Shown here: positions 2,988-42,243 of the stretch, one piece after another
How positions within the stretch are numbered: the first letter of the stretch is position 1
Layout of the letters: the number at the start of each line of letters is the position of its first letter
Source of the DNA: a virus
Strand: one strand, 5' to 3'
IMG/VR virus record: IMGVR_UViG_3300033150_002310
Span: 1 to 45,340 of that record
DNA length: 45,340 nt
Translations under genes and position numbers: made by a program
The notes under the pieces: generated by a model
The model's database searches: none
The model's input: only the letters and a program-made list of their open reading frames with translations
What the model was told of the DNA's origin: nothing

Positions 2988-3495
2988 TTACCAATCCGAG
3001 CAGCCGCCGTTTTTCTTCGACCAGCCGCTGTAGCTGCTCGTCGCTGAGTTTCTCCAAAGAGAGGTGCAAATGGAGGTGATTGCTCGCGGCCCGCCGCCGC
3101 ATCTTACCGAACCGCTCGGCGAGATAGCGGGCGCGGGACACGTCACCGGTCTTGAGCGCCCGGCTATAGACCGCGAGGTCGACGAGCCCGAGGCGGTGAG
3201 GCAGCTCGGCCTCGACCTGCTGCGAGAGCCAGCGCGCGAAGGCCGGTTGTAGCATCCGGCGCAGCACCTCTTCCGGTGTGAGCTGGGCTTGCTTGGCAAT
3301 CTCATTCGTGAAAATGGCACCATTGAGTACGGCAGCGAGAATCAGCCAGTCCGTATTCGACGGCGCATAGGGCAGCTCGGCGTTCGACAGGGCCTTCCCC
3401 AATTGCAGAGCCCGATCAGCTATCGAGTTCTTAATCGGTGTCGGCTTGCGCCGCACCTTGCGCCGATAGATGTCAGAAGAGCCTTCGCTTGGCAT
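2884..3495 (-). CDS. terS: Terminase small subunit (probable)
   Basis: A 203-residue protein just upstream of and overlapping the large terminase. After a basic N-terminus comes a helical segment with a possible DNA-binding helix-turn-helix (TNEIAKQAQLTPEEVLRRML, about residues 77-96). A helical core then precedes the oligomerisation-type coiled segment (LSLEKLSDEQLQRLVEEKRR, about 145-164) and an Ala/Gly/Glu-rich disordered tail. Gene order, size and helical layout are those of small terminase subunits, which select the DNA and hand it to the motor. Sequence similarity in this family is always low, so the call is mainly positional. Confidence 0.75.
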   Translation of the reverse strand: MPSEGSSDIYRRKVRRKPTPIKNSIADRALQLGKALSNAELPYAPSNTDWLILAAVLNGAIFTNEIAKQAQLTPEEVLRRMLQPAFARWLSQQVEAELPHRLGLVDLAVYSRALKTGDVSRARYLAERFGKMRRRAASNHLHLHLSLEKLSDEQLQRLVEEKRRLLGLVNENEQTKQERTPAPGSADTGGTGEAAEEGPASSL

Positions 3496-3889
3496 TCTTT
3501 CTCCAGCGGATTTCCACTACGGTTCGGGATTGCGGTATGATGCGCAAGAGAATCGCCGTATTGAATCGGGGCACGATTAGACTGAGTAGCGCTGTTTCCA
3601 ACCGGAGTCGGTCGGATTTGTTGCCGATTCCGGGCACGAAGTATTCAACATGGGTAAAGGGTATCGGCCGTTTTCGCTTGCGCTCGTGCTGTTTTAATCG
3701 CAAAGCGAGACATTGAGTCTGCCCCACGTACAGAATCGAATCATCGGCCCCGGTCAAAAAGTATACCGTCGGGATCAACGGAGCAACTTCGCCGCGCCGA
3801 ATTCGTTCGAATCCGTCTTGGTTGAAGAGCGGCCCGGCAAGATGCTTAACGATCCAGGCGGTTTCCAGATCCCGCTTATTTTTTTCCAT
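3473..3889 (-). CDS. GIY-YIG family homing endonuclease, free-standing
   Basis: A 138-residue protein. PTVYFLTGADDSILYVGQT is a GIY-YIG core in variant form (VYFL for GIY, LYVG for YIG). It is followed by LALRLKQHERKRKR, which holds the catalytic Arg/His region, and by RLETALL with the metal-binding Glu. A basic tail could bind DNA. The gene sits between tail-type genes and the terminase operon and overlaps the small terminase start by 23 nt. No obvious split gene lies beside it, so it is a free-standing mobile gene. Its ribosome binding site is weak. Confidence 0.85.
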   Translation of the reverse strand: MEKNKRDLETAWIVKHLAGPLFNQDGFERIRRGEVAPLIPTVYFLTGADDSILYVGQTQCLALRLKQHERKRKRPIPFTHVEYFVPGIGNKSDRLRLETALLSLIVPRFNTAILLRIIPQSRTVVEIRWRKNAKRRLF

Positions 3890-7026: not shown

Positions 7027-7342
7027 CGTTCTCCTCTTCTCCATTCGGCCGCCGCCCGAGCCGGTACGGCCAGAGCCAGCATTCCCGGGCCGGGCAGGTC
7101 TTGACCAGGGCGGGCTGGTAGCCCATGCATTCAATGCAGTGGTTCCGGATGGCGGCGAGGGGGGTCGTGACCTCTCCGGGCCGCCTGGGACGGTGGTGGA
7201 TCTTGCCCCGCGAACCCCGCTCTTTCTGGGGGTTTTGCGAGCTAGAATCGCTCCGCGCCGGGGGGCAAGGGGGTTGGGTCGAGTCGGGCCGCTCGGAGCG
7301 ATTCTGGGGCCGAAAACCCCGGGTTTTGTCGGTGCTGCTCAT
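7007..7342 (-). CDS. Conserved phage Cys-rich protein with CxxC...C...C motif
   Basis: A 111-residue protein. The N-terminal 55 residues are Pro/Ser/Arg-rich and disordered. The C-terminal half carries AIRNHCIECMGYQ, then KTCPARECWLWPYRLGRRP, a four-cysteine zinc-type motif seen in small phage proteins that often sit next to DNA-modifying or homing genes. The ATG at 7342 is preceded by AAGGAG and overlaps the stop of the LAGLIDADG gene. The family's function is unknown to me; a zinc-stabilised nucleic-acid-binding role is inferred. Confidence 0.75.
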   Translation of the reverse strand: MSSTDKTRGFRPQNRSERPDSTQPPCPPARSDSSSQNPQKERGSRGKIHHRPRRPGEVTTPLAAIRNHCIECMGYQPALVKTCPARECWLWPYRLGRRPNGEEENDADATN

Positions 7343-7815
7343 GGCTGCCGCTTCTCCTTTCGTTGCGTGTAGTTGTTTATCCGTGTCTGGAGCCGACAGA
7401 GGTCATAGAGCCGCTGCCGCTCCCGCTGGATTTCGTCGGGCAGACGGCGGCCGCGCCCGGCTCCGTAGGGGAACTGGGCCAGGCACTTGGCCTGCTCCCG
7501 CTTGATTTGCAGGTAGGGGAGCAGGAGTTTCGCGACGTAGACGGCGGCCTGGCCGGTTACGGTCCACATCCACATTCTGTATTGCCGCTTGGCCCCCGAC
7601 TTGGGGTTAAAATCGCAAACGGAGCCGCCGAGGACCCGTCGGAGGTGCTCGAGGACTGCCAGGTTGGCACTCGCGGCTTGAACCACGGGAGCAAACTGAT
7701 ATCGGTTTTTGCGACGTTGCCGTGTGATAAAGATTGAGCCGTCGGCATCAATGTAGCCAGCGCAGTAGGCCAGTTCCTTGACTGAGCGGATCAGGTCGTC
7801 ATCGGGTCCGTTCAT
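7339..7815 (-). CDS. LAGLIDADG homing endonuclease (single motif), free-standing
   Basis: A 158-residue protein with one LAGLIDADG motif, YCAGYIDADGSIFI (about residues 17-30), followed by the beta-saddle type region (YQFAPVVQAASANLAVLEHLRRVLGG) and a basic C-terminus. A single motif at this size implies a homodimer that cuts a near-palindromic site. It is the first gene of the leftward operon, directly behind the twin promoter element and an AGAAGGAGG leader. No split target gene is visible beside it, so it has probably inserted as a free-standing mobile gene. Confidence 0.88.
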   Translation of the reverse strand: MNGPDDDLIRSVKELAYCAGYIDADGSIFITRQRRKNRYQFAPVVQAASANLAVLEHLRRVLGGSVCDFNPKSGAKRQYRMWMWTVTGQAAVYVAKLLLPYLQIKREQAKCLAQFPYGAGRGRRLPDEIQRERQRLYDLCRLQTRINNYTQRKEKRQP

Positions 7816-9030: not shown

Positions 9031-9059
9031 TTGACAGCTCCCTAATTGCATGATATACT
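9031..9059 (+). promoter_or_regulatory. Consensus sigma-70 early promoter
   Basis: TTGACA (9031-9036), a 17-nt spacer and TATACT (9054-9059), with TG just before the -10 box. This is nearly ideal for host sigma-70 RNA polymerase and lies 33 nt before the first rightward gene. It is the natural start point for early transcription after DNA entry. Confidence 0.88.
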
Positions 9060-9092: not shown

Positions 9093-9566
9093 ATGAGAAT
9101 TGAATTGTTCTTACACGATTGTGATAGTGAAGTAGAATATAAAATAACAGAAACCGGAGAATTAGTTCCCACTACGCTATCGTTAGGATTAAGACCACCA
9201 ATTCCACCGGATCGACCGGACATTTCCGATCCATCCCTAATCACATATACTATACTCCATGAAATGGGACACATTCATACTTTACCACTACTTCCCAAAT
9301 TCGGCATACTCAATTTCATTGTTGGTGATAAAGGACATATTTTTGTTTTCGAATTGGTAGCATGGTCATGGGCTATCCGGCGCTATAAGCGAGTATTTGG
9401 TAAAGAAAACCTTGACGCACTAATCAGCTATGCGCTATACTGTCTCGAGACATATAAACCGAATTTAGACCGAGAAGAAATAGAGGACACAATTCGGTTC
9501 AAGACACCGATTGAAATACTCGAAGACTATGGTATCATTGAACCGGTAGAGGAGGAATTGGTATGA
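9093..9566 (+). CDS. HExxH putative zinc metallopeptidase-like early protein
   Basis: A 157-residue acidic protein and the first gene behind the early promoter (leader AAAGGAGACG). ITYTILHEMGHIHT (about residues 50-63) carries an HEMGH zinc-binding motif within a predicted helix, as in zincin metallopeptidases. A possible third ligand lies in FVFELVAWSW, a helix with a conserved-looking Glu about 26 residues on. The family is not recognised. Early, strong expression suggests an action on the host, for example cleavage of a host protein, but this is inference. Chance occurrence of HExxH is possible. Confidence 0.6.
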   Translation: MRIELFLHDCDSEVEYKITETGELVPTTLSLGLRPPIPPDRPDISDPSLITYTILHEMGHIHTLPLLPKFGILNFIVGDKGHIFVFELVAWSWAIRRYKRVFGKENLDALISYALYCLETYKPNLDREEIEDTIRFKTPIEILEDYGIIEPVEEELV

Positions 9567-10014: not shown

Positions 10015-10677
10015 ATGACGACGTATGTTGATTACGAAGAGGATGCTTTTGTTGTGGTAGTCCGGACAGAAAGCGATAATACGAAGACAGGAAATGTGCC
10101 GCAAGTATATATCCTGTCGCGTGCTTTCTTGTCTGAACCTTCTACTGATACGTACTGGCAAGCATGCCCAAATAGCTGTCCGCATAAACGTCATGATTGC
10201 TATGTGCGCGCACAAAGTATCTACGCGTTGAGAAAAGGATACTGCGCAGCAAAAGAAAGAGGAGAAGTACTTCCGCTTTCTCGGTATTGTGATCCGGTCG
10301 TTGACGTAGTCCGGTTGGGTGCATTTGGAGAACCCGGTTTCCTTTCTTCCAAATTCTTCCGGTTGTTACGCCGTGCTTTCCCTAACGCTACCATACTTGG
10401 CTACTCCCATGCATGGGATAGTAAGCACTATCGCACGCTGCGACAGTACTGTATGGCGTCATGCGAAACGGAAGAGGAAGTAAAGCGTGCTATAAAGAAA
10501 GGTTATCGCGTATTCTACTGCGGAGAAACGCGGCCGAACATTGCACCTTTTGTGCTCTGTCCGAATACCAAGCAGAAACAGGAAGGAAAAAAGCACCCCA
10601 TTCAATGCGCGCAGTGCCGTTTGTGTTGCGGTCGACAGAAAAGGAATACGGTACACATTTGGAATTTGCCACACTAA
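10015..10677 (+). CDS. Cys-rich phage protein (GP88/DUF7227-like)
   Basis: A 220-residue protein with many Cys and His residues: QACPNSCPHKRHDCYVRAQ (about 49-67), then RLGAFGEPGFLSSKFFRLLR, GYSHAWDSKHYR, MASCETEEEVKRA, and at the end CAQCRLCCGR with TVHIW. This order (N-terminal Cys cluster around 'CYV', a 'R-x-G-x-x-G-(D/E)' motif, an 'ASC' turn and a C-terminal C-x2-C-x2-C-C) matches a phage family of unknown role that may bind metal or Fe-S. It lies alone behind an inverted repeat. Biochemical function unknown; family assignment is by pattern memory. Confidence 0.65.
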   Translation: MTTYVDYEEDAFVVVVRTESDNTKTGNVPQVYILSRAFLSEPSTDTYWQACPNSCPHKRHDCYVRAQSIYALRKGYCAAKERGEVLPLSRYCDPVVDVVRLGAFGEPGFLSSKFFRLLRRAFPNATILGYSHAWDSKHYRTLRQYCMASCETEEEVKRAIKKGYRVFYCGETRPNIAPFVLCPNTKQKQEGKKHPIQCAQCRLCCGRQKRNTVHIWNLPH

Positions 10678-11201: not shown

Positions 11202-11230
11202 TTGACAAAGGAGGCCGTTTATGGTATCCT
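11202..11230 (+). promoter_or_regulatory. Sigma-70 promoter before the VWA/MoxR module
   Basis: TTGACA (11202-11207), 17-nt spacer, TATCCT (11225-11230), preceded by TGG as an extended -10 feature. It lies in the only gap of this region, 42 nt before the ATG at 11272, and would drive the metallopeptidase-VWA and MoxR genes and those beyond. Confidence 0.8.
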
Positions 11231-11271: not shown

Positions 11272-12717
11272 ATGCGTACACTAACGGAAGCACAAAGGAA
11301 AATAGTTGCTAATGACTTCGGTCGGATTAGCAAATTCTTTCCCACAATTACAATGCTACCGGTCTATGTGGTACCGAACAAAAAGCTACCAAGTGCCTAT
11401 GCGGCGCTCTGCCGATCAAAGGAAGGGAAGTACTATTTGCTTTTGTCGGCACGGTACTTCCGCCTTTCCCGAAGTAATCAACGGTGCGGTATTTTGCTCC
11501 ATGAACTACTGCACCGATTGCTTGAACATATAACGCGCAGTCCGGCAACTATGAAAAATTTGCCCCGATTAAATGAACCAGTTCCCAATCAGCCATCTAT
11601 GGAAGTGCTCAATCGGGCGCGGCTTTTCTGGAATTTAATTACAGACTGCTATATAAACGAATGGATAAAATTCTGCACGGATTTTGTTATAGCTCCGGGA
11701 AGCATGGAGTTCAAGAACTTCATAAGTTCCAGCTATACTACACCGGCGGCCGATCCGGAGATTAGTTTGGTTGATTTTTTCTGGAAGGTTTGGCCGGAGT
11801 TTGCACTACAACGTAAATGGGATCGGTTTAATAGAATTTTAAATAACATGCAAAAAAAGGTAGAAGAGAAACGAAAGCTGGAAGCCGAGTGCAACGAAAA
11901 GCTCGAAGAATCGGCAAAAAAGATAAAACGAAATGAAATCAATGCGGGTAGTGAATCCGATCCGCACCCGCTTGTCTTGGAAGGGAATAGTGCAGTAGTC
12001 CGGCGCTTTTACCGGCCGGTTCTGCCGCCGACCGGGCTCTATACTCCGACCGGGCGGCGCTTTGATATTACCGGTGTATCCATTTATTTGCAGCGCTGGC
12101 TCGAGTACGGGGCCCGGGAAGAGGCCACTCTGCGGCCCCGCTTCGCTCGGCGGCGACCGCTATGTTATCCGGAAGTAGTCCGGCGGCAGCGACCGGGACT
12201 ACATATTATCCTTGACGTATCGGGCAGCATGGGATTCGCCGAAATAGTGCTGGCTCTGAAACTAATTGCCTTCTATGTGGACAACGGGTGGCGTGTTTGG
12301 TTCTATGCGGGGGATACTCGGTTGCTCTGCGACTACGAATTGAGCGGCACGGGCTATCGTTACTTTCGGGAAGCTCTGCGCCAAACGGAAGAAGAAGGAA
12401 ATTTGAGACCGTTTCGGTACCTTATACCGGCTGGCGGCGGTACGAATTATCGGGATGTGTGGAGAGATATTCAGGCGAAAACGGCGAATGTGCCCGAAAA
12501 ATACCTTTGGCTGGGTGATTTAGATAATTATTCTTGGCCTCTTGATATTGGTCGTCGGCAGCTGGCGTGGGTCTGTTTCTTGCCTCACGAAAAGCCAAGT
12601 TATGTGAACTATTATGTTAGGGAAGCAAAAGCTCCGGCAGCTCGTTGTGGTCCGATTTTTGCGGTACACACATATACGGGTAACTTAGTAGAATTCGTTC
12701 CCAAAAAGAAGTCGTAG
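11272..12717 (+). CDS. Metallopeptidase-like and VWA domain protein (DUF2201 type)
   Basis: A 481-residue protein with two domains. N-terminal: CGILLHELLHRLLEH at about residues 72-86 (HELLH zinc motif), followed by NLITDCYINEWI, which fits the third-ligand helix of the DUF2201 metallopeptidase domain. The middle is a coiled, charged linker (about 190-225). C-terminal: LHIILDVSGSMG at about 311-322, a complete DxSxS MIDAS motif, then GGGTNYRD near 387 and LGDLDNYS near 416 for the other metal contacts, so a functional VWA domain. It lies 14 nt before the MoxR ATPase. Such pairs remodel or load proteins or metals in other systems; the target here is unknown. Confidence 0.88.
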   Translation: MRTLTEAQRKIVANDFGRISKFFPTITMLPVYVVPNKKLPSAYAALCRSKEGKYYLLLSARYFRLSRSNQRCGILLHELLHRLLEHITRSPATMKNLPRLNEPVPNQPSMEVLNRARLFWNLITDCYINEWIKFCTDFVIAPGSMEFKNFISSSYTTPAADPEISLVDFFWKVWPEFALQRKWDRFNRILNNMQKKVEEKRKLEAECNEKLEESAKKIKRNEINAGSESDPHPLVLEGNSAVVRRFYRPVLPPTGLYTPTGRRFDITGVSIYLQRWLEYGAREEATLRPRFARRRPLCYPEVVRRQRPGLHIILDVSGSMGFAEIVLALKLIAFYVDNGWRVWFYAGDTRLLCDYELSGTGYRYFREALRQTEEEGNLRPFRYLIPAGGGTNYRDVWRDIQAKTANVPEKYLWLGDLDNYSWPLDIGRRQLAWVCFLPHEKPSYVNYYVREAKAPAARCGPIFAVHTYTGNLVEFVPKKKS

Positions 12718-12731
12718 TAAAGGAGGTAGTC

Positions 12732-13940
12732 ATGAGAAACCGTAACACACTGAAGCAGTTGGTTCAGTTGTTGGCAGAGCGGCAGATCACGCCGATGCTC
12801 TGGGGCAAGCACGGTGTCGGGAAGACGGCGCTTGTGCGGGAGCTGGCGGCGGAAACCGGCCGAAGTCTGCGGATTCTTTATTTGGCAACGCAAGAGCCGG
12901 GTGACCTAATCGGGATTCCCTACCAGCGCAATGGCCGCACTGAGTGGGCACCGCCTACTTGGTGGCCGGAAAAGGGAGAGAAAACCATTCTCTTCTTGGA
13001 CGAATTCAACCGGGCTCCGCGTTTCGTATTGAGTGCCATACTGCCCCTATTAACTGAGCGGCAGCTGCACGGGCAGCGGCTGGCTGATGACGTGTGGATC
13101 ATTGCCGCCAGCAATCCACCTTCTGTGGACTATGAAGTAACCGGATTCGATCACGCACTGGCTGGCCGGTTCGTTCACCTTCTGGTTTCGGAGTCGTGGG
13201 AAGAGTGGCGGAACTGGATAAGGCAACAAGTAGATTTACCCTTTGAAAAATTATTCGAATCCTTCGACTTTCCAGAGCAGAAAGAAGAAAAAAATATCTT
13301 GCAGAACCCGAGTCTGGCCGGAAAGATAACGGAAGATGCTCTAAAACAATTACAAATTATGCGCACCACCAACCCGCGCAGCCTCACCTGGGCGTTACAA
13401 ATGGTTGCGGCACCACAATTTAAGAACCTGTCTGCTGCCGCCCAGATCGAAGCACTGGTGGGACTCTTGCCCTATGATGACGGTGTGGCCTTGTGGCGGG
13501 CTCTGTTAGATACCCAAACCCATACGGCGCACGACAGTATCAATACTTGGTTGTGCCATTTTCTTTCGCCAAATAGTAATTATACAGTGCGGCGGCAGGC
13601 GTGGTTGGCTATTCCAATTTTGATGCGCGGTCAGGCGCTACTTGAGGCTCTCGTCCAGGAAGTTAAAGATCGGATTGAGAAAGCTCCAACTCCCTTTCCT
13701 AAGGATAACTACGATACCTTCTACCGACAAATTGTTGGCCGCCTGTTTGAGATCTGGAAGATAGCAAATCACGGAGGTATCGATAAGGAAGTGCTCGAGG
13801 GAACATTAGCGGGGCTCACGCAGCTTTTCAAGAAGCACTTTGAGTTGCGCGAGTTGAGGCGAGCGGTGGAGAGCTTTGCCTTTTCGCCTGAAAAAGAATT
13901 CAATACGCTTGTTGAAAACGTTTTTAACCAGGCTTTCTAA
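12732..13940 (+). CDS. MoxR-family AAA+ ATPase
   Basis: A 402-residue AAA+ protein: Walker A WGKHGVGKTALVREL (about residues 23-37), an ATQEPGDLIGIP loop typical of MoxR ATPases, Walker B TILFLDEFNRAP (about 87-98), sensor 1 IIAASNPP, and ALAGRFVHL with the arginine finger. The C-terminal 200 residues form a helical lid and an extra helical domain. It is tightly linked to the upstream VWA-metallopeptidase gene (AAGGAGGTAGTC leader). MoxR ATPases act with VWA partners as chaperones in complex maturation; an anti-host or virion assembly role is open. Confidence 0.92.
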   Translation: MRNRNTLKQLVQLLAERQITPMLWGKHGVGKTALVRELAAETGRSLRILYLATQEPGDLIGIPYQRNGRTEWAPPTWWPEKGEKTILFLDEFNRAPRFVLSAILPLLTERQLHGQRLADDVWIIAASNPPSVDYEVTGFDHALAGRFVHLLVSESWEEWRNWIRQQVDLPFEKLFESFDFPEQKEEKNILQNPSLAGKITEDALKQLQIMRTTNPRSLTWALQMVAAPQFKNLSAAAQIEALVGLLPYDDGVALWRALLDTQTHTAHDSINTWLCHFLSPNSNYTVRRQAWLAIPILMRGQALLEALVQEVKDRIEKAPTPFPKDNYDTFYRQIVGRLFEIWKIANHGGIDKEVLEGTLAGLTQLFKKHFELRELRRAVESFAFSPEKEFNTLVENVFNQAF

Positions 13941-13952
13941 TAGGAGGTAGTC

Positions 13953-14180
13953 ATGACTAATTTGGTTATACACATTGAGAATCAGGCCTTTTGCCTTTCG
14001 TGCGGTTATCGTCGCCTTTTTTCTGCAGCGCTTGAAAGGGCAGTGCTGCAAGGCATACCCCTTTCTGCTGTTTTTCTTTTACTGCGAAAGGCCGTTACCG
14101 TTCCGGAGCTAAAGATAGAATATCGGACGCGGCGGCTGCGCGGTAAACGGACCTGTCCCGATTGTGGATGTGAGATCTAA
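13953..14180 (+). CDS. Small zinc-ribbon-like protein
   Basis: A 75-residue protein with AFCLSCGYRR at the N-terminus and TCPDCGCEI at the end, together a four-cysteine zinc-binding pair. Between them is a hydrophobic helix (LSAVFLLLRKAV). It has a TAGGAGGTAGTC leader, follows MoxR by 12 nt and precedes the polymerase by 10 nt. A small nucleic-acid- or protein-binding accessory is inferred. Confidence 0.65.
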   Translation: MTNLVIHIENQAFCLSCGYRRLFSAALERAVLQGIPLSAVFLLLRKAVTVPELKIEYRTRRLRGKRTCPDCGCEI

Positions 14181-14190: not shown

Positions 14191-16104
14191 ATGAGCTGGG
14201 AGCGAATCTTTCCCGTTTTTCTCGATACCGAAACGGAGCCGATTAAACCGGGTAGTCGACCCGTTTTCGTGGCCGGGGCCTTCAAGGTCGGCAGCAAGGT
14301 GGAAGTCTTCACCAAGCAAGAAGAGTTTCAGTTGCGGCTCCTGCGGCTTATTACAATGGGGAGCGGTGATCGGGTGCCGATTTTGGTGGCACACAACCTG
14401 GCCTTCGATTTGATGGCAGCCGATCTGGAGCGTTGTATCCAGTGGTATGCCAGTTTTCATCGGCCCTGTCTGTGCTGCACGATGCTCTGGGACGCGCTTC
14501 AACGATTGGCTCGTACCGACTGCGAGGGCGAGCCGATCCTTCGCGATCTGGAATCCGTGGCCGATGAGGCGAAGGCGGGGGATGAGAAAGTTCGACTGAG
14601 TTTTCGTCGCGGGCAGCTGACGGAGGAGCAGCGGGCCTACTTAGTGCAGGACGTTCACCTTACCGAACGGGCCTTCTTGCGGCTGCTGAAGCGGGATCCG
14701 GGGCCCAACTGGGATATTCTAACTGAGCACACCCTTGCCGCCTGGGCGCTCGAGCGGCTCAGCCTTACCGGGCTGCCCATCGATATGGAAGAGGTGCGCT
14801 CCCTCCAGCGGCGGCTCCAGAGCCAGCGCCGGGCGGCAGCCAAGAAGCTGGCGGCCGTAGGTTGGTATGTCCCGGCTCGGACGGGGGCCCGTGGTGGCAA
14901 ATACAAAGCGAAGCTGGATGAGAAGAAGATACGGGCCGATATAGAAGCCCATCTGGAATCACACGGGGTGCAGCCGCTTCGCACCGAAACCGGTCGGGTG
15001 GAGATAAGTAAGGAGGTGCTGCAGACAATTAACGCACGTTATCCACATCCGAGCCTCGAGGCGCTCTTGCGCTACAAAGAGGCCGATAAGATGCTCAGCA
15101 CTTATATCTCGGCCTGGAAGGAGTTCTACAATCCGGATACGGGGCGGATCCATCCCACCTATTTTCCGCTACTCCACACGGGCCGTACGTCCTGTGCCCG
15201 GCCGAATCTCCAGAACCTACCCAAGCGGAGCGGGAAGGTCTGGATTCGACGCTGCTTCCGGCCCTCTTCCTCTGCGGCGGTCTTTGTCGAAACGGACTAT
15301 CGCCAGCTCGAGCTCGCCTGTTTGGCCCAGATTCTACCAGGGAAATTGCGGGAGATGATCCGAAGGGGAGAGGATGTTCATAGGTATCTGGGAACGATAT
15401 TCTACGGCAAACCGGCGAAGGAGATTACAAAGGAGGAGCGGTTCCTGATGAAGGCCAGTAACTTCGGTCTGCCTGCAGGAATGGGGCCGCGGAAGTTCGT
15501 GACCCACTGTGCCCGGCAGGGGCTCGTCATTACGCTGGATGAGGCCGCCCGGTTGCGGGATGCTTGGCTTCGGGCCTTTCCGGAGTTTCGGCAGTGGCTG
15601 GCCGAGCAGGAACCGCCAGAGCTCCACGGTGCCACTCGGGCGAAGTTCTTGAGCCCAAAACAGCTGGTGGCGGTCCTGCGCCGACTGGCTCAGACTCCGG
15701 ATGCACCGTCGGACCTGATAAAAGAAGTGCAGCGGGGCCGGAGCTCGCCGCGCCTGGAGCGGTGGCTGATGCGGCGGCGGGTGCAGATAAAGGACTGGCA
15801 CGGTGTCTGGCTCGAGCGGCACCCGGTGTCCTATACCGTTTATCGGAATGCCCAGTTCCAGGGGCTGGCGGCGCGGCTTACGAAGCGGGGGCTCGTTCAG
15901 CTGACGCTGGCCGGTTACCAAATTTGTGCGTATGTCCATGACAGCTATTTAATCCAACTCGAGGATGTAAAGGAAGTGGACAAGATCGAGGAGATCCTGG
16001 CCAGGGAGGCGCGGCAGCTGTTGCCGGATGTGTACGACGAGAACACACCGACGGAGCAGATTGTGGAGTCTACTATCTATCCCAATAATTGGGCCGATGA
16101 ATAA
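14191..16104 (+). CDS. Family A DNA polymerase with 3'-5' exonuclease
   Basis: A 637-residue replicative polymerase starting MSWERIFPVF behind TAAGGAGGCAATT; an upstream frame extension lacks a ribosome site. Exonuclease motifs: LDTETEP (I, about 11-17), VAHNLAFDLMA (II, about 65-75), AYLVQDVHLTERA (III, near 150). Polymerase motifs: A is ETDYRQLELACLA (about 367), B is RFLMKASNFGLPAGMG (about 415-430) and C is AYVHDSYLIQL (about 580). Motif B has PAG where E. coli Pol I has IYG, so the O-helix tyrosine is replaced by Ala, as in some phage branches with small residues there. Motif C reads HDS rather than HDE. It replicates the phage genome with the helicase downstream. Confidence 0.95.
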   Translation: MSWERIFPVFLDTETEPIKPGSRPVFVAGAFKVGSKVEVFTKQEEFQLRLLRLITMGSGDRVPILVAHNLAFDLMAADLERCIQWYASFHRPCLCCTMLWDALQRLARTDCEGEPILRDLESVADEAKAGDEKVRLSFRRGQLTEEQRAYLVQDVHLTERAFLRLLKRDPGPNWDILTEHTLAAWALERLSLTGLPIDMEEVRSLQRRLQSQRRAAAKKLAAVGWYVPARTGARGGKYKAKLDEKKIRADIEAHLESHGVQPLRTETGRVEISKEVLQTINARYPHPSLEALLRYKEADKMLSTYISAWKEFYNPDTGRIHPTYFPLLHTGRTSCARPNLQNLPKRSGKVWIRRCFRPSSSAAVFVETDYRQLELACLAQILPGKLREMIRRGEDVHRYLGTIFYGKPAKEITKEERFLMKASNFGLPAGMGPRKFVTHCARQGLVITLDEAARLRDAWLRAFPEFRQWLAEQEPPELHGATRAKFLSPKQLVAVLRRLAQTPDAPSDLIKEVQRGRSSPRLERWLMRRRVQIKDWHGVWLERHPVSYTVYRNAQFQGLAARLTKRGLVQLTLAGYQICAYVHDSYLIQLEDVKEVDKIEEILAREARQLLPDVYDENTPTEQIVESTIYPNNWADE

Positions 16105-22333: not shown

Positions 22334-22743
22334 ATGAAAAGAAAAAAGCCATTGATTTATGATAGGCCTTGGGACAAGCGCTTTTTAATAAGCCTGGATG
22401 TGGTGGTCGATGTTTTAGAGCACATCGACTTGCTTATGAATTAGCGTTTGGTCCCATTCCTAAAGGAATGTTAGTACTTCATAAATGTGATAATCGTCGT
22501 TGTTGTAGACCGGGGCATCTTTTTCTCGGAACTCAAGCGGATAATATGAAAGATATGACTAAAAAAGGACGCAGTTTACGAGGTGAACGACATCCAAATA
22601 GTACACTATCAGAAAAACAAGTATTAACAATTAGAAATCTTAAACAGCGCGGGCTGAAAGTTTGTGAAATAGCAAGACAAATTGGATGTTCATATAACGC
22701 AGCATATGATGTTCTCAGAAGAAAAACTTGGAAATGGTTATAG
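22334..22743 (+). pseudogene. HNH homing endonuclease, decayed by internal deletion
   Basis: ATG at 22334 (leader ATAGGAGGTAATT) opens MKRKKPLIYDRPWD, homologous to MSSKKPLIEDRPWD of the intact HNH gene at 23418. In frame the reading stops soon after. From about 22371 another frame continues with GQALFNKPG, RAHRLAYELA, then LHKCDNRRCCRPGHLFLGTQ (the HNH core) and a C-terminal HTH (EIARQIGCSYNAAYDVLRRK). Some 35 residues present in the intact copy are missing at the junction, where TTGGGAC could have recombined with a TATGGAC-like site. AT-rich like its relative. Confidence 0.8.
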
Positions 22744-23417: not shown

Positions 23418-23906
23418 ATGTCATCAAAAAAGCCACTAATAGAAGATCGTCCTTGGGATTTTTGGTCAAGATTAGAAATTAAGTCTTTTGATCCAGATGT
23501 ATGTTGGGAGTGGTGTGGTGGTTATTTTCCTGACGGATATGGGTATGCATATTTTAATGCAAGAGATAAGCGTTGGCGGGCCCATAGACTTGCATATAAA
23601 CTTGCTTATGATAAAGATCCAGGTAATTTATGTGTTTGTCATAAATGTGATAATCCTGCCTGTTGTCGTCCAAGTCATTTATTTCTTGGTTCTCATAAAG
23701 ACAACATGCAAGATAAAGTTAAGAAAGGACTATCATTGTCTGGATCAAAACATCCTCGTGCTAAATTAACAGAAGCACAAGTAAAACAAATTCGTAAAAT
23801 GGTGGAACAAGGCATTCCACAATATATATTAGCAAAACGTTTCAAAGTTTCTCAATCAACAATAAATGCTATTATAAAGAAAAGAAACTGGGCGACACTC
23901 GAATAA
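23418..23906 (+). CDS. HNH homing endonuclease, free-standing, intact
   Basis: A 162-residue protein with AAAGGAGGTAAAA before ATG. The N-terminal part (CWEWCGGYFPDGYGYAYFN then RAHRLAYKLAYDK) precedes the HNH_3 core CVCHKCDNPACCRPSHLFLG (about 75-94) with DNM downstream. The C-terminal LTEAQVKQIRKMV and YILAKRFKVSQSTINAII form an HTH for DNA binding. It is strongly AT-rich in a GC-rich genome and ends the rightward operon next to the shared terminator. A paralogous, decayed copy lies 1 kb upstream. Confidence 0.9.
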   Translation: MSSKKPLIEDRPWDFWSRLEIKSFDPDVCWEWCGGYFPDGYGYAYFNARDKRWRAHRLAYKLAYDKDPGNLCVCHKCDNPACCRPSHLFLGSHKDNMQDKVKKGLSLSGSKHPRAKLTEAQVKQIRKMVEQGIPQYILAKRFKVSQSTINAIIKKRNWATLE

Positions 23907-23976: not shown

Positions 23977-26900
23977 CTATTCTGATCGCTTCATGATGTG
24001 CTCGGCAAGGAGGCGGAGCCGGTTGCCGCGCGGGCTCCGGAGAAAGCGCTCGACGAATTTGACATCGGTGGCCTTCTGGGCTTCGAGCACCGTCGCCCGG
24101 ACCAGGCGGTTCCAGACGTTCAAGAATGCCATGCCGAACCGCAGCCGCAACCGGGTATCCTTCGAAGTCGAGTACAGCCGGGCCAGCTTCGAAGCGGCGC
24201 GGGCAAGCTTATAGACATTGGACTGATGCGCGAGCCGGTTCGGATCCAGCAACCGGCTCCATACATATTCTCTGTGCTGTGGATCGAGCATGGGCTGGTT
24301 TTCGAAGGCCACGATGAGGTTCGGCAACATATCGACGGGCACCTTATCGTAGAGGGTATAGGGCGTGCGGCCGACGTAATCGACGAGCTTCTCGGCCCAT
24401 TCTTCTTCAGTCCGCTCGAGGGTCAGCCAGACGCCGCCGATGTAGACATGCTTTCGCCCCGCCTTCTTCAGCTCGGTGGCGGCCTCGCGCACGCGCCGTT
24501 TGAATTCGTCGATGTCGCCTTCCTTCAGGGCCTCGCGCGCGCTCCAGGCCCGGGCCCGGAGCAGGTCTATTACCGGATCCTGCATTTCCTTTATCAGCTC
24601 GCCTACGTCCTCGGGCCGGAGCATTTCCATTGCCAGCCGGGCCCCAATCGTTTTCGGCGTAGCATGGCGCACGCTGATGCCGAGGGCCGCGCCGAGAATC
24701 CGCTCGAGAATGGTCCGCTGGTGGAGTGTATACGGACTCGGCGGTCGCTGGGCATCCTCGATCTGTTCCCAGGCAGAGACAATCGTTCGCGGCAAAGCGA
24801 GGCTTAGCGTATCCCTGAACATCGAGGCCGCCATCTGTCCGAGCCCGGCCCCGCGATAGGTGATTTCCTCCTGCCGCCACGGATCGACACCGGTGAAGCG
24901 CCGCACGACCCAGTCGGTAACGGGGTGGCTGAAGACCAGCTGACTAATTGGTGTGAGTGCCGTGCCGACGAGCCAGCCGAATTCGCCGCCGCTCTTCATA
25001 TTTTCGAGCATCGGCCGCATCAAGCCGCCGGGCTGGGCGAAAACATCGAGCAGCATGTACTTTCGCAGCGAGAGAACATATAGCCCCCACGGCGTTGGAA
25101 TAACGAGGCTCGTCACATAGTGGAAAAAGGCATCGAGCTCATTTCGAGCCCGTACCGTTGCCTTGAAGTCCTGATAGGTCCAATTGGTCATCGATAGCGC
25201 GAAGGTATTCCAGGCGAAGTTCAGGCCCGCCATCCGGAGCATAATCCGAGGCTGGAGCGTTACGATGTTCTTGAGAATGCGGAGGGCCTCGTAGGTGAAG
25301 CTCGGTACAAAGGCACCGACACCGGGCAGAACACGAAGACGCCGAATGAGTGGCGGCACCATACCGTATTGCTGCATGAAGAGCTGAACCATGAGCTGGG
25401 CCTGCTCGATGCCGTGCTGTTTCGTTAGCTCCATCATCGTGGCAAATTTGGCCCGGGCGTCGAGCAGGGCGTATTCGCGATCAAAGAAGTTGTGGATAAC
25501 GGACTTGTCGCTATACATCCGGACCACGAGATCTCGAGTAAGCGAATTCGGTAGGATCTTCGAAAGGAATGGTGTTTGTATCTTTTCCAGCTTAATCCGG
25601 GCCCGGCGCAGTGCCTCCTGGGTCTCGGCCAGGCGGCGCTGTAGCTGAGTCGTACTCTGCCCCCGCTCCTCCTTGGCCAGAATTTCGTTTATCAGTTTGG
25701 TTTCGGCTCCTTCGAGCAGCTCGATGGCGTGCTCCACCCGGCGCATTTCATATCGGTGCTGCTTCTCGACCAGTTGTCGCCACTCCTTACGCTGCCGCCA
25801 GCGCTGCATGCGGCCCGAGCCGAACATTTCCGCAGTCGGCGAGGCGACAGTTGGCGAAAGCAGGCCGGTGAGCATGCCGCGCCGGAATACCTGAATATGG
25901 AGCTCGGTAATGCCGTTCTTTCCAATGAGGGATTCGAGCTTTACGCCGTTTTCGTAGGCCTCGAGGATATCACTAAAGGCCTTGAAGTTGTGGTTCCAAT
26001 CGCGGCTATGCGGCCGGGCCCCGAGCGCCGCCGAGGTGTACATATTCGTGAGGTGGTTGGTAAACCACGTACCCAGATTTCGCGTGATCAGGTTGCGGTA
26101 TAGGAATTTGGTAAATCTCTGTAGCGGTCGGCTGCCGCCACGGAATACGGTCTGATAGAGTTTCGTTATTAGCGGCGACTCGAGCACGTCCTCTCGGAAC
26201 TGCTCCATCTTGGCCTCGAGCACGCGCCAGCCCTCGTCCCAAGCGTTCATTTCACGAATCAGCTTCTTGCGGACCCACATGCCCGAGAGCGGGCCGAAGG
26301 ATTTGTTGGGCTCGATATAAGTCCATTCGCCGTGCCGATCGACAGGCACACCGGGCGGCCCCGCTTTGACACCGGCTCGGCTCGGCGGCTTCACCCAGCC
26401 GTTTTGCAGTCCCCATACATAATAGATCTTATTTCGTACAAGATCCGACCACATCGAGCGGAGCGCCTGGATTTGGAGCTCGAGGTCGCCCATTTTCGCG
26501 CCGCGCAGGGCCATTTGCTGGCTGCTCGGCGGCTTGATCGGGCCACCCTCGATGATATCCGAGCGCCGCAGCTTGCCGCGCTTTATCTGCTCGCGAATCC
26601 ATGCATTGGCCTCGCGCATGGCCTTGTTGATATTCGTGGGCTGGAATCGCGCTTCGCCCTCTCCGGGCACGTTGAAGCGCTGCTCCCGTACCTTGCCCGT
26701 GCGCGGATCGTGCCACAGGACGCGGACGACGCCCGGGGTGCGCTGGACCTTCAGGTGATCAAACCGCGGCCAGTTCAGGAGCGGTGGTGCGAATTTGCTG
26801 ACGCCGGGCCGCGCGGGCATGAACTGTCGCACGTCTTCGCTGGAGAGCGTATCGAAGATGGCCTGCCAGACCGAGCGCCGCATCTTCTCGCCGAACCCCT

Positions 26901-29900
26901 TGTCGATTATACCGGCTTCCTCCAGGGCCTCGATGAAGGCGTGGCGCTCTGTCTCGAGCATCTCATACATCCGCTCCACCGCCGCCGTCACGCCCTCCTT
27001 CGGCCGCTCGCCAGTAGAGAGCCACTCGTGCAGTGCGGCGCGCCCCTCCGGTCCCCATTCGGCCAGTTCGACCAGCGCCTCCTCGAGCCGCCGCCGGTGG
27101 GGCTCGGCCAAGAAGTGACTGGCCTGGTTTTGAATTGCCATGAGCACGCGGCGGCCGGTGGGGTTCTGGGGCAGGAGGAGCAGGTCGGCATTGATGAAGC
27201 TGGCCGCGTCCTCCTTGGCGACCTGCCGGAGGATCTCGAGGTGGTTTCGGAATTGCTTGACGGTGCGGGCAAACACCTCGTCCAGCGCGGGCAGCCCCCA
27301 CTCGAAACGGCCATAGACCCGCTGTGCGACTTTATTCACCAGCAGATCGAAGCTCTCCGGCTTGAGCCAGCCCTTGCGATAATCGATGGCGTGCTGATCA
27401 CCCTGTTCGGCCAACCAGTCAATGGCCTCCACGAGTTTCTGCCGCCACCGTTCCGGGATCCAATCGGCCGCGCCGCCGCTTGCGATGTGGTCCCGCACGG
27501 CCAGGCGCAGGAGGCGATGACGGCTGCCAGCCGAGAGTCGGGTACGGAATCCTTCCTCAATGGGTCGGATATTCGCCGGGGGCTTTTCGGCAATGGAGGC
27601 CCGCTTTGCCATTTCGAGCTGGGCGAGGTCGATTGAGAGTTCCTCATACAGGCGTCGCCATTGATAATTCTCCTTGTTGCGCAGGAATTCCCGGAACTCG
27701 CTGACCTCCTTTACCATCTTCTTCCGGGCCGTCACCACCTTCTGTCGGCGCAGTCGGCGATAGCTGTTTAGGGCCCGTTCTAGCTTAGCCACGGCGCGCC
27801 GCCATTTAATATTTGGCTTCCGGTAGACGGCCTTTATCCGGCGCATTCGCCGCCAGGTACGATAGGCCGAACCGTATCGGGGATGATCCTTTACCCAGGC
27901 CTGGAAATCCGGATCATTTAGATTGATTCGGTTATAGCGCCGGAGGGCCTCGCGGTACCGGCGCGTTGCCAGCTGGGCGGCGGCGCGATAGCCGCTTTCG
28001 AGCTGCGTCTCCGCATTCGCCATGCGCCAAGCTCGTTTCCGTGAGGCCCGGGCGAAACGCTCCCAATGAAGCAGATCCTCTTTGTGCTGGCGATAGGCTT
28101 CGAAAGCCAGTTCGCCCTGTTCGATGTAGGCGAGGTGGCGTGTGAGCCGTTCCGGTGTCGCCCAGCGGTCGAAGATATTCATCCAGTATTCGGCCAGGTG
28201 GCTGCCCTTTTCACTGCTCCGCCACCGTTCCAGTCGTGGCCGAATGCGCTCTCGGTAGAGCTGCGAGAAGGTCGAGGAGTCGGAATCGAGCCAGAGCTGC
28301 TGCGCCTCCATGACGAGGTGGGTAATGGTCTTGTCGACGCGGCCCTCGTTGGCGGCGCGTTCCCATTCGGCCAGTTCGGTTTCGGCCAGGGCTCGGCGCT
28401 TCGCGGCGTCGGCGATCAGGAGCGGCCGCCGGGGCTTCGCCGGGAGGAGTTTATTCAAATAGGGGATGCCGGAATAGGACCGCTCCGGAACGACGGCGAG
28501 CTGGGCCAGCTCCGGGCCAAGTCCGTCGAGGGCGGCCTGCATGTAGCGCTCCACATCCGGCAGCCCGACCTGGAGCCCGCGCTCGAGCCGGGCTTCCATG
28601 TCACTGAGCAATCCATTGAGATAGTCGATCTTATCCGTCTTCGCCAGCCCACTCCGCTCCATGAGTTTCAGATGGGCCCGCCACTTCTTGAATTCGGCCT
28701 GTCGGACCTCTTCCGGCATCCGATTCAGTGTGCGCCGCAGCCGCCGGGCACCGATTCCGTAGGCGACGGCGAAGGTCGGATCGGCATTGAAGACGGAACG
28801 GAGCACAGACGGAATCGAAAATGGATTGAGGGACATCTCGGCAGCCGCCGCCATGAGGCGCGGCACCTGATAGCCCTTGAGCATGAGTCGCCGCCCCCGC
28901 TCCGATATCGGTATCTTCTTGAGCAGGTCCTTTACGGTGTATTTACCGACCTTGCCGAGGCGGACCGCCTTCAGCCCCTTGAATGCGATGGGGGCCGCGA
29001 CCAAAGTCGTCACGGGGTCATCCAGTATGGCCTGTGTTATGTCTATCGGCAGATCTCGGGCGATGGCGGAGAGGGTAGCGAAGTTGAGCCAGACATGATC
29101 GAAGAATCCGAGATCCTTCCGGTCGAGCTGCTCGCTCAGGTACTCCCACGCGCCCTCATTTGCGGTACCAAAGAGGAATTTCCTGCCGACTTCGAGCGGC
29201 GGCGGCAATTCCCTCTTGGCCGGGATTGTCTGTGTCAGTTGGGCCACCAGATCGGGCCGCTCGGCTGCGATCCGGGCCGAGAGCAGCTGCTTGCCCAGCC
29301 AGGCGAAGAGGGGGTCAAGGGGCCGCTCTACAATCATGCGGCCGCGCTCACCAGCAACCTTCTTCACCAGGCCGCCGAGCTGTTCCCAGGCGAAGCTGAC
29401 AACGCGAAGGGCCAGGGCGGGCAGGGTATCGGATTGCAGAACCCGCGCCTTGGCATTCTCGAATTCTATCCGCACATCCTCGTCTCGGAATACGGCCTTC
29501 AGCCATGCCTGGCGCTCGGCCGCAATGGTTTCGTCGAGGGCCGCAGTCAATTCCTCCTTGCTGATGAAGCCCTCGCCGCCCAATAGCCGATTGGCCTCCT
29601 CGATGCGCCGGGGATAATCTTGCATCTGCCAGTCGATATACGATTGAACCCATTTCTGAAATCGACGAAGGGGCGGCGCTTCTTCGAAATAGGCCTCAAA
29701 TGGCGGAGCCGTAATGACGCCATTACCATGATCGGTACGAGTTCTCGCATAGAAATCTTCCCAAGACGAGGCCGAAAACAGCTGGTGGAGCAATATCCGA
29801 CGCCGTTTCGGATCCAGTCGCCGAAGGAATTCTATCATTTTTGGCGTCGGTTCCCGCCCGGTTATTTCCTTCAACAGATTGAGGACATCGGTTAGGTTAC

Positions 29901-30960
29901 CGGTGGCGCGCGCGTCGAATTCTTGACCGGCCAAGTGCCGGAAAAAGGCCTTGGGATTACCGGTGGGGGCCCGGCTGCGAATGAGGACCTCGTACTTATT
30001 CCGGGCCTGTTTGAAGAGGGGCAAGAGCCGCCAATCGAAGTCGCCGGTTGGGTCGAAGGCCTCGGGCGGCGCATCGACGCCCAGGTGCTCAAGCTTCGCC
30101 TGCCGCATTCGGCGTGTGGTGACGATACCGAGATCGCGATTGAAGGCGGCAATGAGCTTCTTATCGACAGTCGGCTTCCGCCCGAGCAGGTAGGAGAGGG
30201 CCTGGGCATCGGCCTTATATTGTGGAAACGAAGAGGGATCGGCCAGGTAGACGGCCGCCCGCTCGGCAATGCTCCGGATGTTGTCGGGTTCGATTTTCTG
30301 CGGATCCAGTCCGTAGCGGGCGGCCACCTCCTTAACGGCTTCGGCCCGGACCCAATCCACCTCTTCCGGATCAGTGAGGGTGCTGTTCTCGAGCGCGACC
30401 TTCAACAGCGCCGCGGCCGCCACGCGCTTATTCAGCTCGGGCGGACCGACGGTATCCCAGGCGGCACCGTAAGTCAGCTCGAGGAGGCCCTCAACGGCCT
30501 CGCGCCGCTGGTGGTAGTCTCCGAGTGTGCGCCGATTCAGCTTGAGCCCGCGCTTCTCGAGGACCCGGTCGATTTCGTCTATCTGCCCTTCCTCGAAGAT
30601 GCGGAGGACCCGCTTCGGATCGGGGCCGGGAGTATAGAGCAAATCGGCCTCGAGCCCGAAGGCGGACTCGAGATCGTCCGGCACCTGGAGCATTCGCATG
30701 AGCTCTTGCGGCGCGGCGCGCGGCATGGGCTCCTCCCTGGCCGGTTGCGGATCGGGACGGAGCCGAGTCGGTATCCGCTGCCGTGCCGTCTGCTGCAGAT
30801 CGGCATAGAGGGCGGCCGCTAAGTTGCGCCGCTCCTCTTCTTTTATCTGACGCTCGGCCTCCTTTACCGGAGCCAGGGCGGAGGCAAACCAGCCGCGCGG
30901 CTCCGGTTCCGGAACGGCCGCTGTCGCTTCGAGGTCTTCATGTATCCAGTCTAGATTCAT
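23977..30960 (-). CDS. Giant inner virion (ejection) protein, 2327 residues
   Basis: A single frame of 2327 residues, 15 percent of the genome. The N-terminus is acidic and Pro-rich. The middle (about 930-1120) is Arg/Lys-rich and helical, e.g. YRAAAQLATRRYREALRRY. Hydrophobic helices occur near 630-680 (TTLVAAPIAFKGLKAV) and in the C-terminal third, where LLDARAKFATMMEL (about 1835), PSFTYEALRILKNIV (about 1885) and MLRMAGLNFAWNTFALSMTNW resemble large phage internal proteins. No lysozyme, RNA polymerase or protease motif was found. Last gene of a podovirus ejection cassette, it probably lies in the head core and is injected to form a channel through the envelope. Start overlaps the previous stop (ATGA). 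Confidence 0.75.
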   Translation of the reverse strand: MNLDWIHEDLEATAAVPEPEPRGWFASALAPVKEAERQIKEEERRNLAAALYADLQQTARQRIPTRLRPDPQPAREEPMPRAAPQELMRMLQVPDDLESAFGLEADLLYTPGPDPKRVLRIFEEGQIDEIDRVLEKRGLKLNRRTLGDYHQRREAVEGLLELTYGAAWDTVGPPELNKRVAAAALLKVALENSTLTDPEEVDWVRAEAVKEVAARYGLDPQKIEPDNIRSIAERAAVYLADPSSFPQYKADAQALSYLLGRKPTVDKKLIAAFNRDLGIVTTRRMRQAKLEHLGVDAPPEAFDPTGDFDWRLLPLFKQARNKYEVLIRSRAPTGNPKAFFRHLAGQEFDARATGNLTDVLNLLKEITGREPTPKMIEFLRRLDPKRRRILLHQLFSASSWEDFYARTRTDHGNGVITAPPFEAYFEEAPPLRRFQKWVQSYIDWQMQDYPRRIEEANRLLGGEGFISKEELTAALDETIAAERQAWLKAVFRDEDVRIEFENAKARVLQSDTLPALALRVVSFAWEQLGGLVKKVAGERGRMIVERPLDPLFAWLGKQLLSARIAAERPDLVAQLTQTIPAKRELPPPLEVGRKFLFGTANEGAWEYLSEQLDRKDLGFFDHVWLNFATLSAIARDLPIDITQAILDDPVTTLVAAPIAFKGLKAVRLGKVGKYTVKDLLKKIPISERGRRLMLKGYQVPRLMAAAAEMSLNPFSIPSVLRSVFNADPTFAVAYGIGARRLRRTLNRMPEEVRQAEFKKWRAHLKLMERSGLAKTDKIDYLNGLLSDMEARLERGLQVGLPDVERYMQAALDGLGPELAQLAVVPERSYSGIPYLNKLLPAKPRRPLLIADAAKRRALAETELAEWERAANEGRVDKTITHLVMEAQQLWLDSDSSTFSQLYRERIRPRLERWRSSEKGSHLAEYWMNIFDRWATPERLTRHLAYIEQGELAFEAYRQHKEDLLHWERFARASRKRAWRMANAETQLESGYRAAAQLATRRYREALRRYNRINLNDPDFQAWVKDHPRYGSAYRTWRRMRRIKAVYRKPNIKWRRAVAKLERALNSYRRLRRQKVVTARKKMVKEVSEFREFLRNKENYQWRRLYEELSIDLAQLEMAKRASIAEKPPANIRPIEEGFRTRLSAGSRHRLLRLAVRDHIASGGAADWIPERWRQKLVEAIDWLAEQGDQHAIDYRKGWLKPESFDLLVNKVAQRVYGRFEWGLPALDEVFARTVKQFRNHLEILRQVAKEDAASFINADLLLLPQNPTGRRVLMAIQNQASHFLAEPHRRRLEEALVELAEWGPEGRAALHEWLSTGERPKEGVTAAVERMYEMLETERHAFIEALEEAGIIDKGFGEKMRRSVWQAIFDTLSSEDVRQFMPARPGVSKFAPPLLNWPRFDHLKVQRTPGVVRVLWHDPRTGKVREQRFNVPGEGEARFQPTNINKAMREANAWIREQIKRGKLRRSDIIEGGPIKPPSSQQMALRGAKMGDLELQIQALRSMWSDLVRNKIYYVWGLQNGWVKPPSRAGVKAGPPGVPVDRHGEWTYIEPNKSFGPLSGMWVRKKLIREMNAWDEGWRVLEAKMEQFREDVLESPLITKLYQTVFRGGSRPLQRFTKFLYRNLITRNLGTWFTNHLTNMYTSAALGARPHSRDWNHNFKAFSDILEAYENGVKLESLIGKNGITELHIQVFRRGMLTGLLSPTVASPTAEMFGSGRMQRWRQRKEWRQLVEKQHRYEMRRVEHAIELLEGAETKLINEILAKEERGQSTTQLQRRLAETQEALRRARIKLEKIQTPFLSKILPNSLTRDLVVRMYSDKSVIHNFFDREYALLDARAKFATMMELTKQHGIEQAQLMVQLFMQQYGMVPPLIRRLRVLPGVGAFVPSFTYEALRILKNIVTLQPRIMLRMAGLNFAWNTFALSMTNWTYQDFKATVRARNELDAFFHYVTSLVIPTPWGLYVLSLRKYMLLDVFAQPGGLMRPMLENMKSGGEFGWLVGTALTPISQLVFSHPVTDWVVRRFTGVDPWRQEEITYRGAGLGQMAASMFRDTLSLALPRTIVSAWEQIEDAQRPPSPYTLHQRTILERILGAALGISVRHATPKTIGARLAMEMLRPEDVGELIKEMQDPVIDLLRARAWSAREALKEGDIDEFKRRVREAATELKKAGRKHVYIGGVWLTLERTEEEWAEKLVDYVGRTPYTLYDKVPVDMLPNLIVAFENQPMLDPQHREYVWSRLLDPNRLAHQSNVYKLARAASKLARLYSTSKDTRLRLRFGMAFLNVWNRLVRATVLEAQKATDVKFVERFLRSPRGNRLRLLAEHIMKRSE

Positions 30961-37065: not shown

Positions 37066-37508
37066 TACTTTTCTCCCCTAACCCATTCCCGGAGCTGCTC
37101 GGATACCTTCTTCTTGAATTCATCAAATTCGGCACGCAATTCGGCAACTACACCGAGATCACCCAGCAGCCGCTGAATATCATCTCGGTGAGCAACCTGT
37201 TGTCGATCGACTTTCTCTGCCAGCTGCTTTGAGGCACTAACCAACTGCTCAGCCTGTTCGACTGCCTTTTTGACTTGCTGCCAAGCGAGCTGCAGATTAT
37301 CAATGTGCTGCTCCTGCACGGCTGATAATTCTTGCATCGATGCCTCAACGCGCTGGAGCATTGCCGCTACCTTTTTTTCCGTTTCCTTTATCCGCCTAGA
37401 GAAGGCCTCGAGGGTATCTGCTACCTCTGTTTTGCCAACGAGGCGCAGATTCCGAATGGTCTCCTCCAGGGCAGCAACACGCTGTCGGAGTTCATTTACG
37501 CTAGACAT
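37065..37508 (-). CDS. Coiled-coil protein
   Basis: A 147-residue protein that is nearly all heptad-like helix (VNELRQRVAALEETIRNLRL, ETEKKVAAMLQRVEASMQEL, ELRAEFDEFKKKVSEQLREW). No hydrophobic segment. It follows the bifunctional glycosyltransferase with an 8-nt overlap and has a CAGGAGGTAAAG leader. It could be a trimeric virion stalk or an assembly aid. Function unknown. Confidence 0.65.
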   Translation of the reverse strand: MSSVNELRQRVAALEETIRNLRLVGKTEVADTLEAFSRRIKETEKKVAAMLQRVEASMQELSAVQEQHIDNLQLAWQQVKKAVEQAEQLVSASKQLAEKVDRQQVAHRDDIQRLLGDLGVVAELRAEFDEFKKKVSEQLREWVRGEK

Positions 37509-41387: not shown

Positions 41388-42243
41388 CTTGTCAGACCTG
41401 AGGGTGTTCTTAACGATTTCACAAGGCTATGCCTTGGACTGTACCTTAGGATGGGATGGTGCGAAAACGGCTTCGAGCATTTTATTCTTTTTTGTTGTAA
41501 GTTGGCGAAAAGTGACGGCAGCTATTCGTTCGATCATTTTTCGATGCCGTATTTGCCAGCTATATTCGGGCCGCCACTTTATATTTTTAAACGTTCGTTT
41601 ACGAATTCGGGGCATTCGGTGGTTTGTTGCTAATTTTTGGCATATGCTTTTCACTGCCTGAATATTCCACCGATTACTTCCCGAAACGCGAACAGTTGGT
41701 GGTGATGTTACAATTGAACCATCACCATCAAGAAATCCAGCAAGCCAACCGAACCATCCTACATCCCATTCCCGTCCAGTCTCTTGGCCTTCCGCAAGCC
41801 ATTTTGGCCACGTGCGGCTTGGCTCCGGCTGGCGCTTTAACCGACGCAGTAGAGCAACATCGTCCGGGTCATTATAGGTAATAGCTCGAAGCAGTACGGC
41901 AGCTTCCTTTTTCTTACCTATAAGATACGGAGCGATGGCAAGAACTACTCGACAAATGGCATTCTTTTTTCCGATTACAATTGTATAAATTTTTTTCTTA
42001 GCGTGTATTTTTGGTTTCTTACCAATGATCTGCCAAAAGATTGTAGCTGCTTTTCGCATCGGTTCGATTTCAGTCATCGTAAGCTTTATTATTCCCATCG
42101 TTGTATTGCAATTATCATTTTGTCGTGCGAAAAAGCAGCCTTCGGCATCGAGTAGTCCTGCAAGCCAACCAAGCTCTACTTTTGTCATAGCGCTTCACCG
42201 GAATTTGGGAATGTACGGAGCGAATAGGAATTCATCGACTCCA
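41388..42243 (-). other. Putative group I intron in the major capsid gene
   Basis: About 856 nt between a 6-codon exon 1 and exon 2. Near the 3' end CTAAGGTACAGTCC (around 41442-41429) resembles the conserved J8/7-P7 segment (AAGAUAUAGUCC) of group I introns, followed by a P9-like hairpin AAGGC-ATA-GCCTT. At the 5' end the exon UCACU can pair with GGUGA (near 42199) with a U-G pair at the splice site, and the helix extends with GGA/UCC, a credible P1. GGACU within the LAGLIDADG ORF start could pair with AGUCC as P7. P3-P6 were not resolved, so splice sites are provisional. Confidence 0.7.
41427..42188 (-). CDS. Intron-encoded LAGLIDADG homing endonuclease (two motifs)
   Basis: A 253-residue monomeric-type enzyme with two motifs, LGWLAGLLDAEGCFF (about residues 6-20) and FGWLAGFLDGDGSIV (about 146-160), the acidic residues intact in both (E/D at the last positions). 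It lies wholly inside the putative capsid intron: the ATG is 55 nt after the 5' splice site, and the last codons (HPKVQSKA and stop) are the P7-like intron core. It would cut intronless capsid genes at the exon junction and spread the intron. Possible maturase activity cannot be judged. More AT-rich than the capsid exons. Confidence 0.92.
   Translation of the reverse strand: MTKVELGWLAGLLDAEGCFFARQNDNCNTTMGIIKLTMTEIEPMRKAATIFWQIIGKKPKIHAKKKIYTIVIGKKNAICRVVLAIAPYLIGKKKEAAVLLRAITYNDPDDVALLRRLKRQPEPSRTWPKWLAEGQETGREWDVGWFGWLAGFLDGDGSIVTSPPTVRVSGSNRWNIQAVKSICQKLATNHRMPRIRKRTFKNIKWRPEYSWQIRHRKMIERIAAVTFRQLTTKKNKMLEAVFAPSHPKVQSKA

Follow-up and report, generated by a model that had tools for sequence, protein, structure and literature searches.

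At what stage of infection, and on what kind of client, would a virus use a metallopeptidase-like VWA protein encoded directly ahead of a MoxR-family AAA+ ATPase? The question is raised by IMG/VR virus record IMGVR_UViG_3300033150_002310, whose 45,340 bases are the whole stretch of DNA analysed here (hereafter the window). A sequence-only reading had described an HELLH metallopeptidase-like VWA protein followed directly by a MoxR ATPase; indeed, both genes are intact on the plus strand and lie 14 nt apart (Table 1).

The two proteins and their apparent transcription unit

The N-terminal part of the VWA protein carries a zincin motif, HELLHRLLEH at residues 77–86 (H77-E78-x-x-H81-x4-H86), and downstream of it NLITDCYIN (121–129), which has the form N-x3-D-x2-N. 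The C-terminal MIDAS is complete (D315, S317, S319, T391 and D416) and invariant across seven phage homologues. HExxHx4H, N-x3-D-x2-N and DxSxS were kept in all 15 sequences compared, drawn from diverse phages and uncultivated viruses as well as a single MAG contig; at the level of sequence, this set is a family signature, far above chance. The protein remained under every Pfam cut-off (14.2 versus 23.2, with the gathering scores of PF13203 and PF09967 considered) and matched phrog_1314 among the PHROG profiles (E = 6.1e-7). Its orthologue in the nearest relative of the window (L010, see below) exceeded the DUF2201_N cut-off (26.2 bits versus 23.2) and matched phrog_1314 at 1.8e-16. The protein has the make-up of DUF2201 metallopeptidase–VWA proteins of the COG3864 type, with HExxHx4H and N-x3-D-x2-N ahead of a VWA domain whose MIDAS is complete, and a metallopeptidase-like domain, a predicted zincin with intact active-site residues, is supported. 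The label "HNH endonuclease" given to phrog_1314 in PHROG and RefSeq looks wrong, because its members match the DUF2201_N metallopeptidase and DUF2201 VWA domains along their length (for example, L004:5225–6649, L006:4983–6119 and L008:2679–4001).

The downstream protein matched Pfam AAA_5 (PF07728, E = 2.6e-14) and phrog_1297 (E = 3.9e-38). Its AAA_5-type domain contains the elements of an AAA+ ATPase, with Walker A GKHGVGKT (25–32), Walker B ILFLDE (86–91), sensor-1 N128 and Arg-finger R146; ten phage homologues all share G25, G28, G30, K31, D90, E91, N128 and R146. A sensor-2-like PRS at 215–217 is also present in the nearest relative. The earlier claim that key residues are kept is therefore borne out for both proteins, with HExxH and DxSxS present in the window and conserved in distant phage homologues. 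The closest solved AAA sequences to MoxR were Midasin and NorQ. Two-sequence AlphaFold monomer models were poor, with mean pLDDT values of 43.0 and 50.9, the latter for MoxR.

Table 1 Coordinates of the locus and of small HExxH genes in three viruses
Feature	Position	Strand	Basis or remark
Extended −10 sigma-70-type promoter, TTGACA-N17-TATCCT with TG	11202..11230	+	70 nt upstream of VWA start codon; same site type in L010
Metallopeptidase–VWA protein, 481 aa, phrog_1314 (DUF2201) family	11272..12717	+	ORF, PHROG match, motif residues
AAGGAGG ribosome-binding site of MoxR gene	12720..12726	+	Read directly
MoxR-family AAA+ ATPase, 402 aa, phrog_1297	12732..13940	+	Pfam, PHROG, residues
75-aa ORF, four cysteines in two CxxC motifs	13953..14180	+	Starts 12 nt past MoxR
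Family A DNA polymerase	14191..16104	+	PF00476, E = 1.7e-41; 48% orthologue in L010
Small HExxH gene, window	9093–9566		HEMGH
Small HExxH gene, L010	741–1280		HELGH, weak M78/IrrE match
Small HExxH gene, L017	4601–5059		HEIAH, SprT-like

The 75-aa CxxC ORF, for which a Pfam search gave no family above cut-off, apparently belongs to the same transcription unit as MoxR. The same apparent unit extends to the DNA polymerase, whose ORF is open from a GTG at 14164; the L010 orthologue suggests the ATG at 14191 as the start. The pair apparently forms a two-gene protein-remodelling machine, a ring ATPase with a protease-like adaptor, that is turned on along with the DNA polymerase. The ORFs upstream had been called host-takeover genes, a label for which Pfam and PHROG gave no functional match; one of them (10015–10677) matches the C-terminal part of phrog_2554, a family of unknown function, at 1.4e-26. 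The description of the virus as a podovirus has an SU10-type portal match as its sole basis.

Promoter, gene order and divergence in the nearest relative

Neither a nucleotide search of phages with the window nor single-protein scans of viral contigs yielded a match. Scanning viral contigs with the DNA polymerase and the portal identified the nearest relative, L010 (IMGVR_UViG_3300033149_007212, 45,950 bases), which keeps the order VWA–MoxR–DNA polymerase. The pair had been proposed to stand behind its own sigma-70 promoter, and the score of the site at 11202–11230 was matched or beaten by only 0.2% of 74-bp windows in the genome. A strict extended −10 pattern (TTGACA-N14-TGN-TATNNT) was absent from all 60 genomes simulated with the same dinucleotide content. 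The window has it at position 11202 and L010 at position 2059, 70 and 69 nt, respectively, ahead of the VWA start codons. The predicted promoter is supported by this conservation, and the VWA–MoxR–polymerase order behind the same promoter type in L010 is a new result. Only two further sites fit the strict pattern, position 9031 of the window and position 1766 of another contig, L012.

Of the promoter-like sites in the region, the one at 9031–9059 (TTGACA-N17-TATACT with TG) is the strongest; it precedes the small HEMGH gene. A small HExxH protein is encoded 1–2.5 kb upstream of the pair in all three uncultivated viruses with VWA first. We considered a conserved small zincin gene as part of the module; this is unsupported by sequence, the window and L010 proteins aligning only at the motif.

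Identity between the window and L010 is 24% for VWA, 47% for MoxR and 48% for the DNA polymerase. Among genes whose orthologue could be detected, VWA has diverged most. Identity is 44–100% (median 77.5) for the 22 genes on the minus strand, which cover terminase, portal and the virion side, with several virion-side genes above 90%, versus 24–59% (median 40) for the nine detectable genes at 11.3–20.6 kb, the pair included. The replication block and the virion side differ with Mann–Whitney p = 4e-5, a significance that is overstated since linked genes are non-independent. Genes at 21.2–23.3 kb are back to 79–99% identity. Judged from these identities, it is with the replication block, and not with the virion-side genes, that the pair diverges, which is a new result. 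We assign the pair to the replication block because of both the apparent transcription unit and its inheritance, as seen in the co-divergence from L010. The pair is absent from a 25-kb fragment (G002), which says nothing on this point because only the virion side is present there.

Compared with L010, the genome appears mosaic over 8–20.6 kb, with the early/replication block at 24–59% or undetectable and flanks often above 90%. Homing-endonuclease-like ORFs were seen by eye, one GIY-YIG-like (3473–3889), two HNH-like (22369–22743 and 23418–23906) and two LAGLIDADG-like (7339–7815 and 41427–42188), the ORF at 41427 also having endonuclease PHROG matches. Within the virion gene block, an 821-aa protein (37501–39966, minus strand) has two glycosyltransferase regions and TPR-like repeats. 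A giant 2327-aa ORF on the virion side (23977–30960, minus strand) has no Pfam match and is possibly an internal or ejected virion protein.

The pair in other phages and its cellular relatives

The sequence-only reading had implied that the pair is rare, which the searches contradict. A tblastn search with the MoxR protein returned 502 phage records, among which other MoxR-like ATPases may be counted. The window VWA protein found no tblastn match among phages because it is too diverged, and its family was reached through the neighbours of MoxR: with the VWA partner of Salmonella phage SP-058, 607 phage records were retrieved, 506 of them covering at least 80% of the query. MoxR lies on the same strand as VWA and within about four genes of it in every one of the 16 lineages inspected (window, L010, L017, L025, MinM2, S-TIM54, AR9, SP-058, PA5oct, AD45-P1, RHph_TM29, phiTE, BF, EE36phi1, Phosso and 24-32N). 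VWA comes first in the window, L010, L017 and AD45-P1, and MoxR in the remaining lineages. Two MoxR matches (a Vibrio phage and phage G) lacked any recognisable partner within the 4-kb flanks.

RHph_TM29, L025 and Phosso carry a DNA polymerase gene at a distance of 1.5–5 kb from the pair. In N4-like phages, S-TIM54, AR9 and phiTE the polymerase gene does not adjoin the pair, so it is not a universal neighbour. In a Manatee Spring phage with a similar polymerase, the stretch examined held no annotated MoxR–VWA pair. L025 is a Bacteroidia MAG contig (JALHRL010000022.1), possibly viral, in which the order by eye is a B-family-like DNA polymerase, MoxR, a 187-aa ORF, DUF2201–VWA and a metallophosphoesterase-like gene.

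The pair, including the peptidase–vWA fusion, was described in group 2.2 jumbo phages by Iyer et al. in 2021 (PMC7824862). In the window, likewise, the two genes are adjacent on the same strand, and the peptidase domain is fused N-terminally to vWA. Unlike in the jumbo phages, the genome is only 45 kb, the VWA gene comes first, the VWA protein is strongly diverged, and the pair appears to share a transcription unit with a family A DNA polymerase. Gp24 and gp25 of N4 (Schitoviridae), recognised in roseophages in 2009 (PMC2784036), are similar in being an AAA ATPase and a vWFA protein encoded side by side, or almost, within the non-structural half of a podovirus genome, and the N4-like members examined also keep HExxHx4H and MIDAS. 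In N4, however, MoxR precedes VWA, the genome is ~72 kb and the polymerase is ~11–14 kb away. The window pair is a divergent member of a pair already known and widespread in phages.

Cellular counterparts are CbbQO and NorQD (CGN-type), which the phage pair probably resembles, by analogy, in joining an AAA+ ring to a VWA adaptor that binds its client via the MIDAS. MIDAS mutants of CbbQO retain ATPase activity but lose client sensing and activation (PMC4660213). These systems differ in serving cellular clients (rubisco and nitric oxide reductase) and in having an adaptor without a described HExxH domain. A literature search found no client or activity for the phage pair, and the main text of a genome-wide CRISPRi-ART phage knock-down study does not mention it.

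Role of the pair during infection

We favour, with a probability of about 0.5, a model in which a MoxR ring and a VWA–zincin adaptor would remodel or process a client during the replication phase. Complex formation and both enzymatic activities (ATPase and peptidase) are inferred in this model, as are its timing and its client. By analogy with the cellular systems, the VWA MIDAS would most likely hold a specific client protein through an acidic residue exposed on it, the ATP-driven MoxR ring would remodel the bound client, and the HExxHx4H domain would nick or process it. Its own sigma-70-type promoter would probably drive transcription of the pair at an early or middle stage of infection, with the DNA polymerase gene in the same unit. 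For this reason, a phage or host protein of the replication phase is a more likely client than a virion protein made late. A chaperone or remodelling pair with a metallopeptidase-like domain, as first proposed, is supported as far as sequence can indicate; the accompanying view of it as a conflict system is not, no conflict-system partner having been found.

In a different scenario, the MoxR ring and the VWA–peptidase would fold and trim structural proteins, and the client would belong to the capsid, the tail or the virion interior. For the jumbo-phage pair, Iyer et al. proposed a part in assembling virions and in processing proteins by peptidolysis (PMC7824862). Additionally, MoxR p618 and VWA p892 of Acidianus two-tailed virus (ATV), the best-studied viral MoxR–VWA pair that we found, are assigned to tail development (PMC4124505). 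Like the window pair, they combine a viral MoxR with a VWA partner, and the two ATV proteins were shown to interact; they differ in belonging to an archaeal virus, in that the VWA partner is reported to lack a peptidase domain (PMC7824862) and in being implicated in extracellular tail development. Structural genes flank the pair in Serratia phage BF, MoxR bears a mass-spectrometry note in the PA5oct record (annotation as given there), and the giant 2327-aa protein is also diverged (43% over the compared part) and could be a client. Against assembly, the window pair lies in the polymerase unit and diverges with the replication genes, whereas virion-side genes include the well-conserved ones described above, and an early promoter is annotated ahead of MoxR in Bacillus phage AR9. 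We consider assembly unlikely in the window's lineage: promoter and gene order in L010, together with the co-divergence, appear to favour an early, replication-phase role, short of proof. The sequence-only reading had held that a pair common and essential for particle assembly in relatives would count against its own proposal; the pair is indeed common and conserved, but the co-divergence points away from assembly.

A host-directed weapon or counter-defence, in which the pair would unfold or cleave a host protein, is less likely still and is ranked last, as there is no positive evidence for it. The 24% identity of VWA would fit a changing target, and MoxR–vWA cores like that of the window occur in bacterial ternary conflict systems (Kaur et al. 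2020, PMC7159879). Unlike those systems, the window pair has no third component or effector domain: none of VMAP, iSTAND, FtsH, a beta-propeller or a vWA effector domain was found among the proteins encoded around it, and bpMoxR scored 23.7 bits against a cut-off of 27. PADLOC defence models gave nothing beyond weak, partial ATPase-domain matches (~1e-3). Moreover, the pair is conserved broadly rather than patchily, and the list of 14 core genes for N4-like phages includes a vWFA domain (PMC10783043).

Returning to the replication-phase model, we tentatively propose that, at least in the window's lineage, the pair may be a protease that remodels its client, passed on together with the polymerase unit and the conserved early promoter ahead of it, rather than the virion assembly factor proposed in the literature. 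The pair occurs in hundreds of phage records, in which its VWA protein is often mislabelled "HNH endonuclease". The polymerase-unit version in a compact genome narrows its plausible role and offers a direct test against the virion-assembly proposal.
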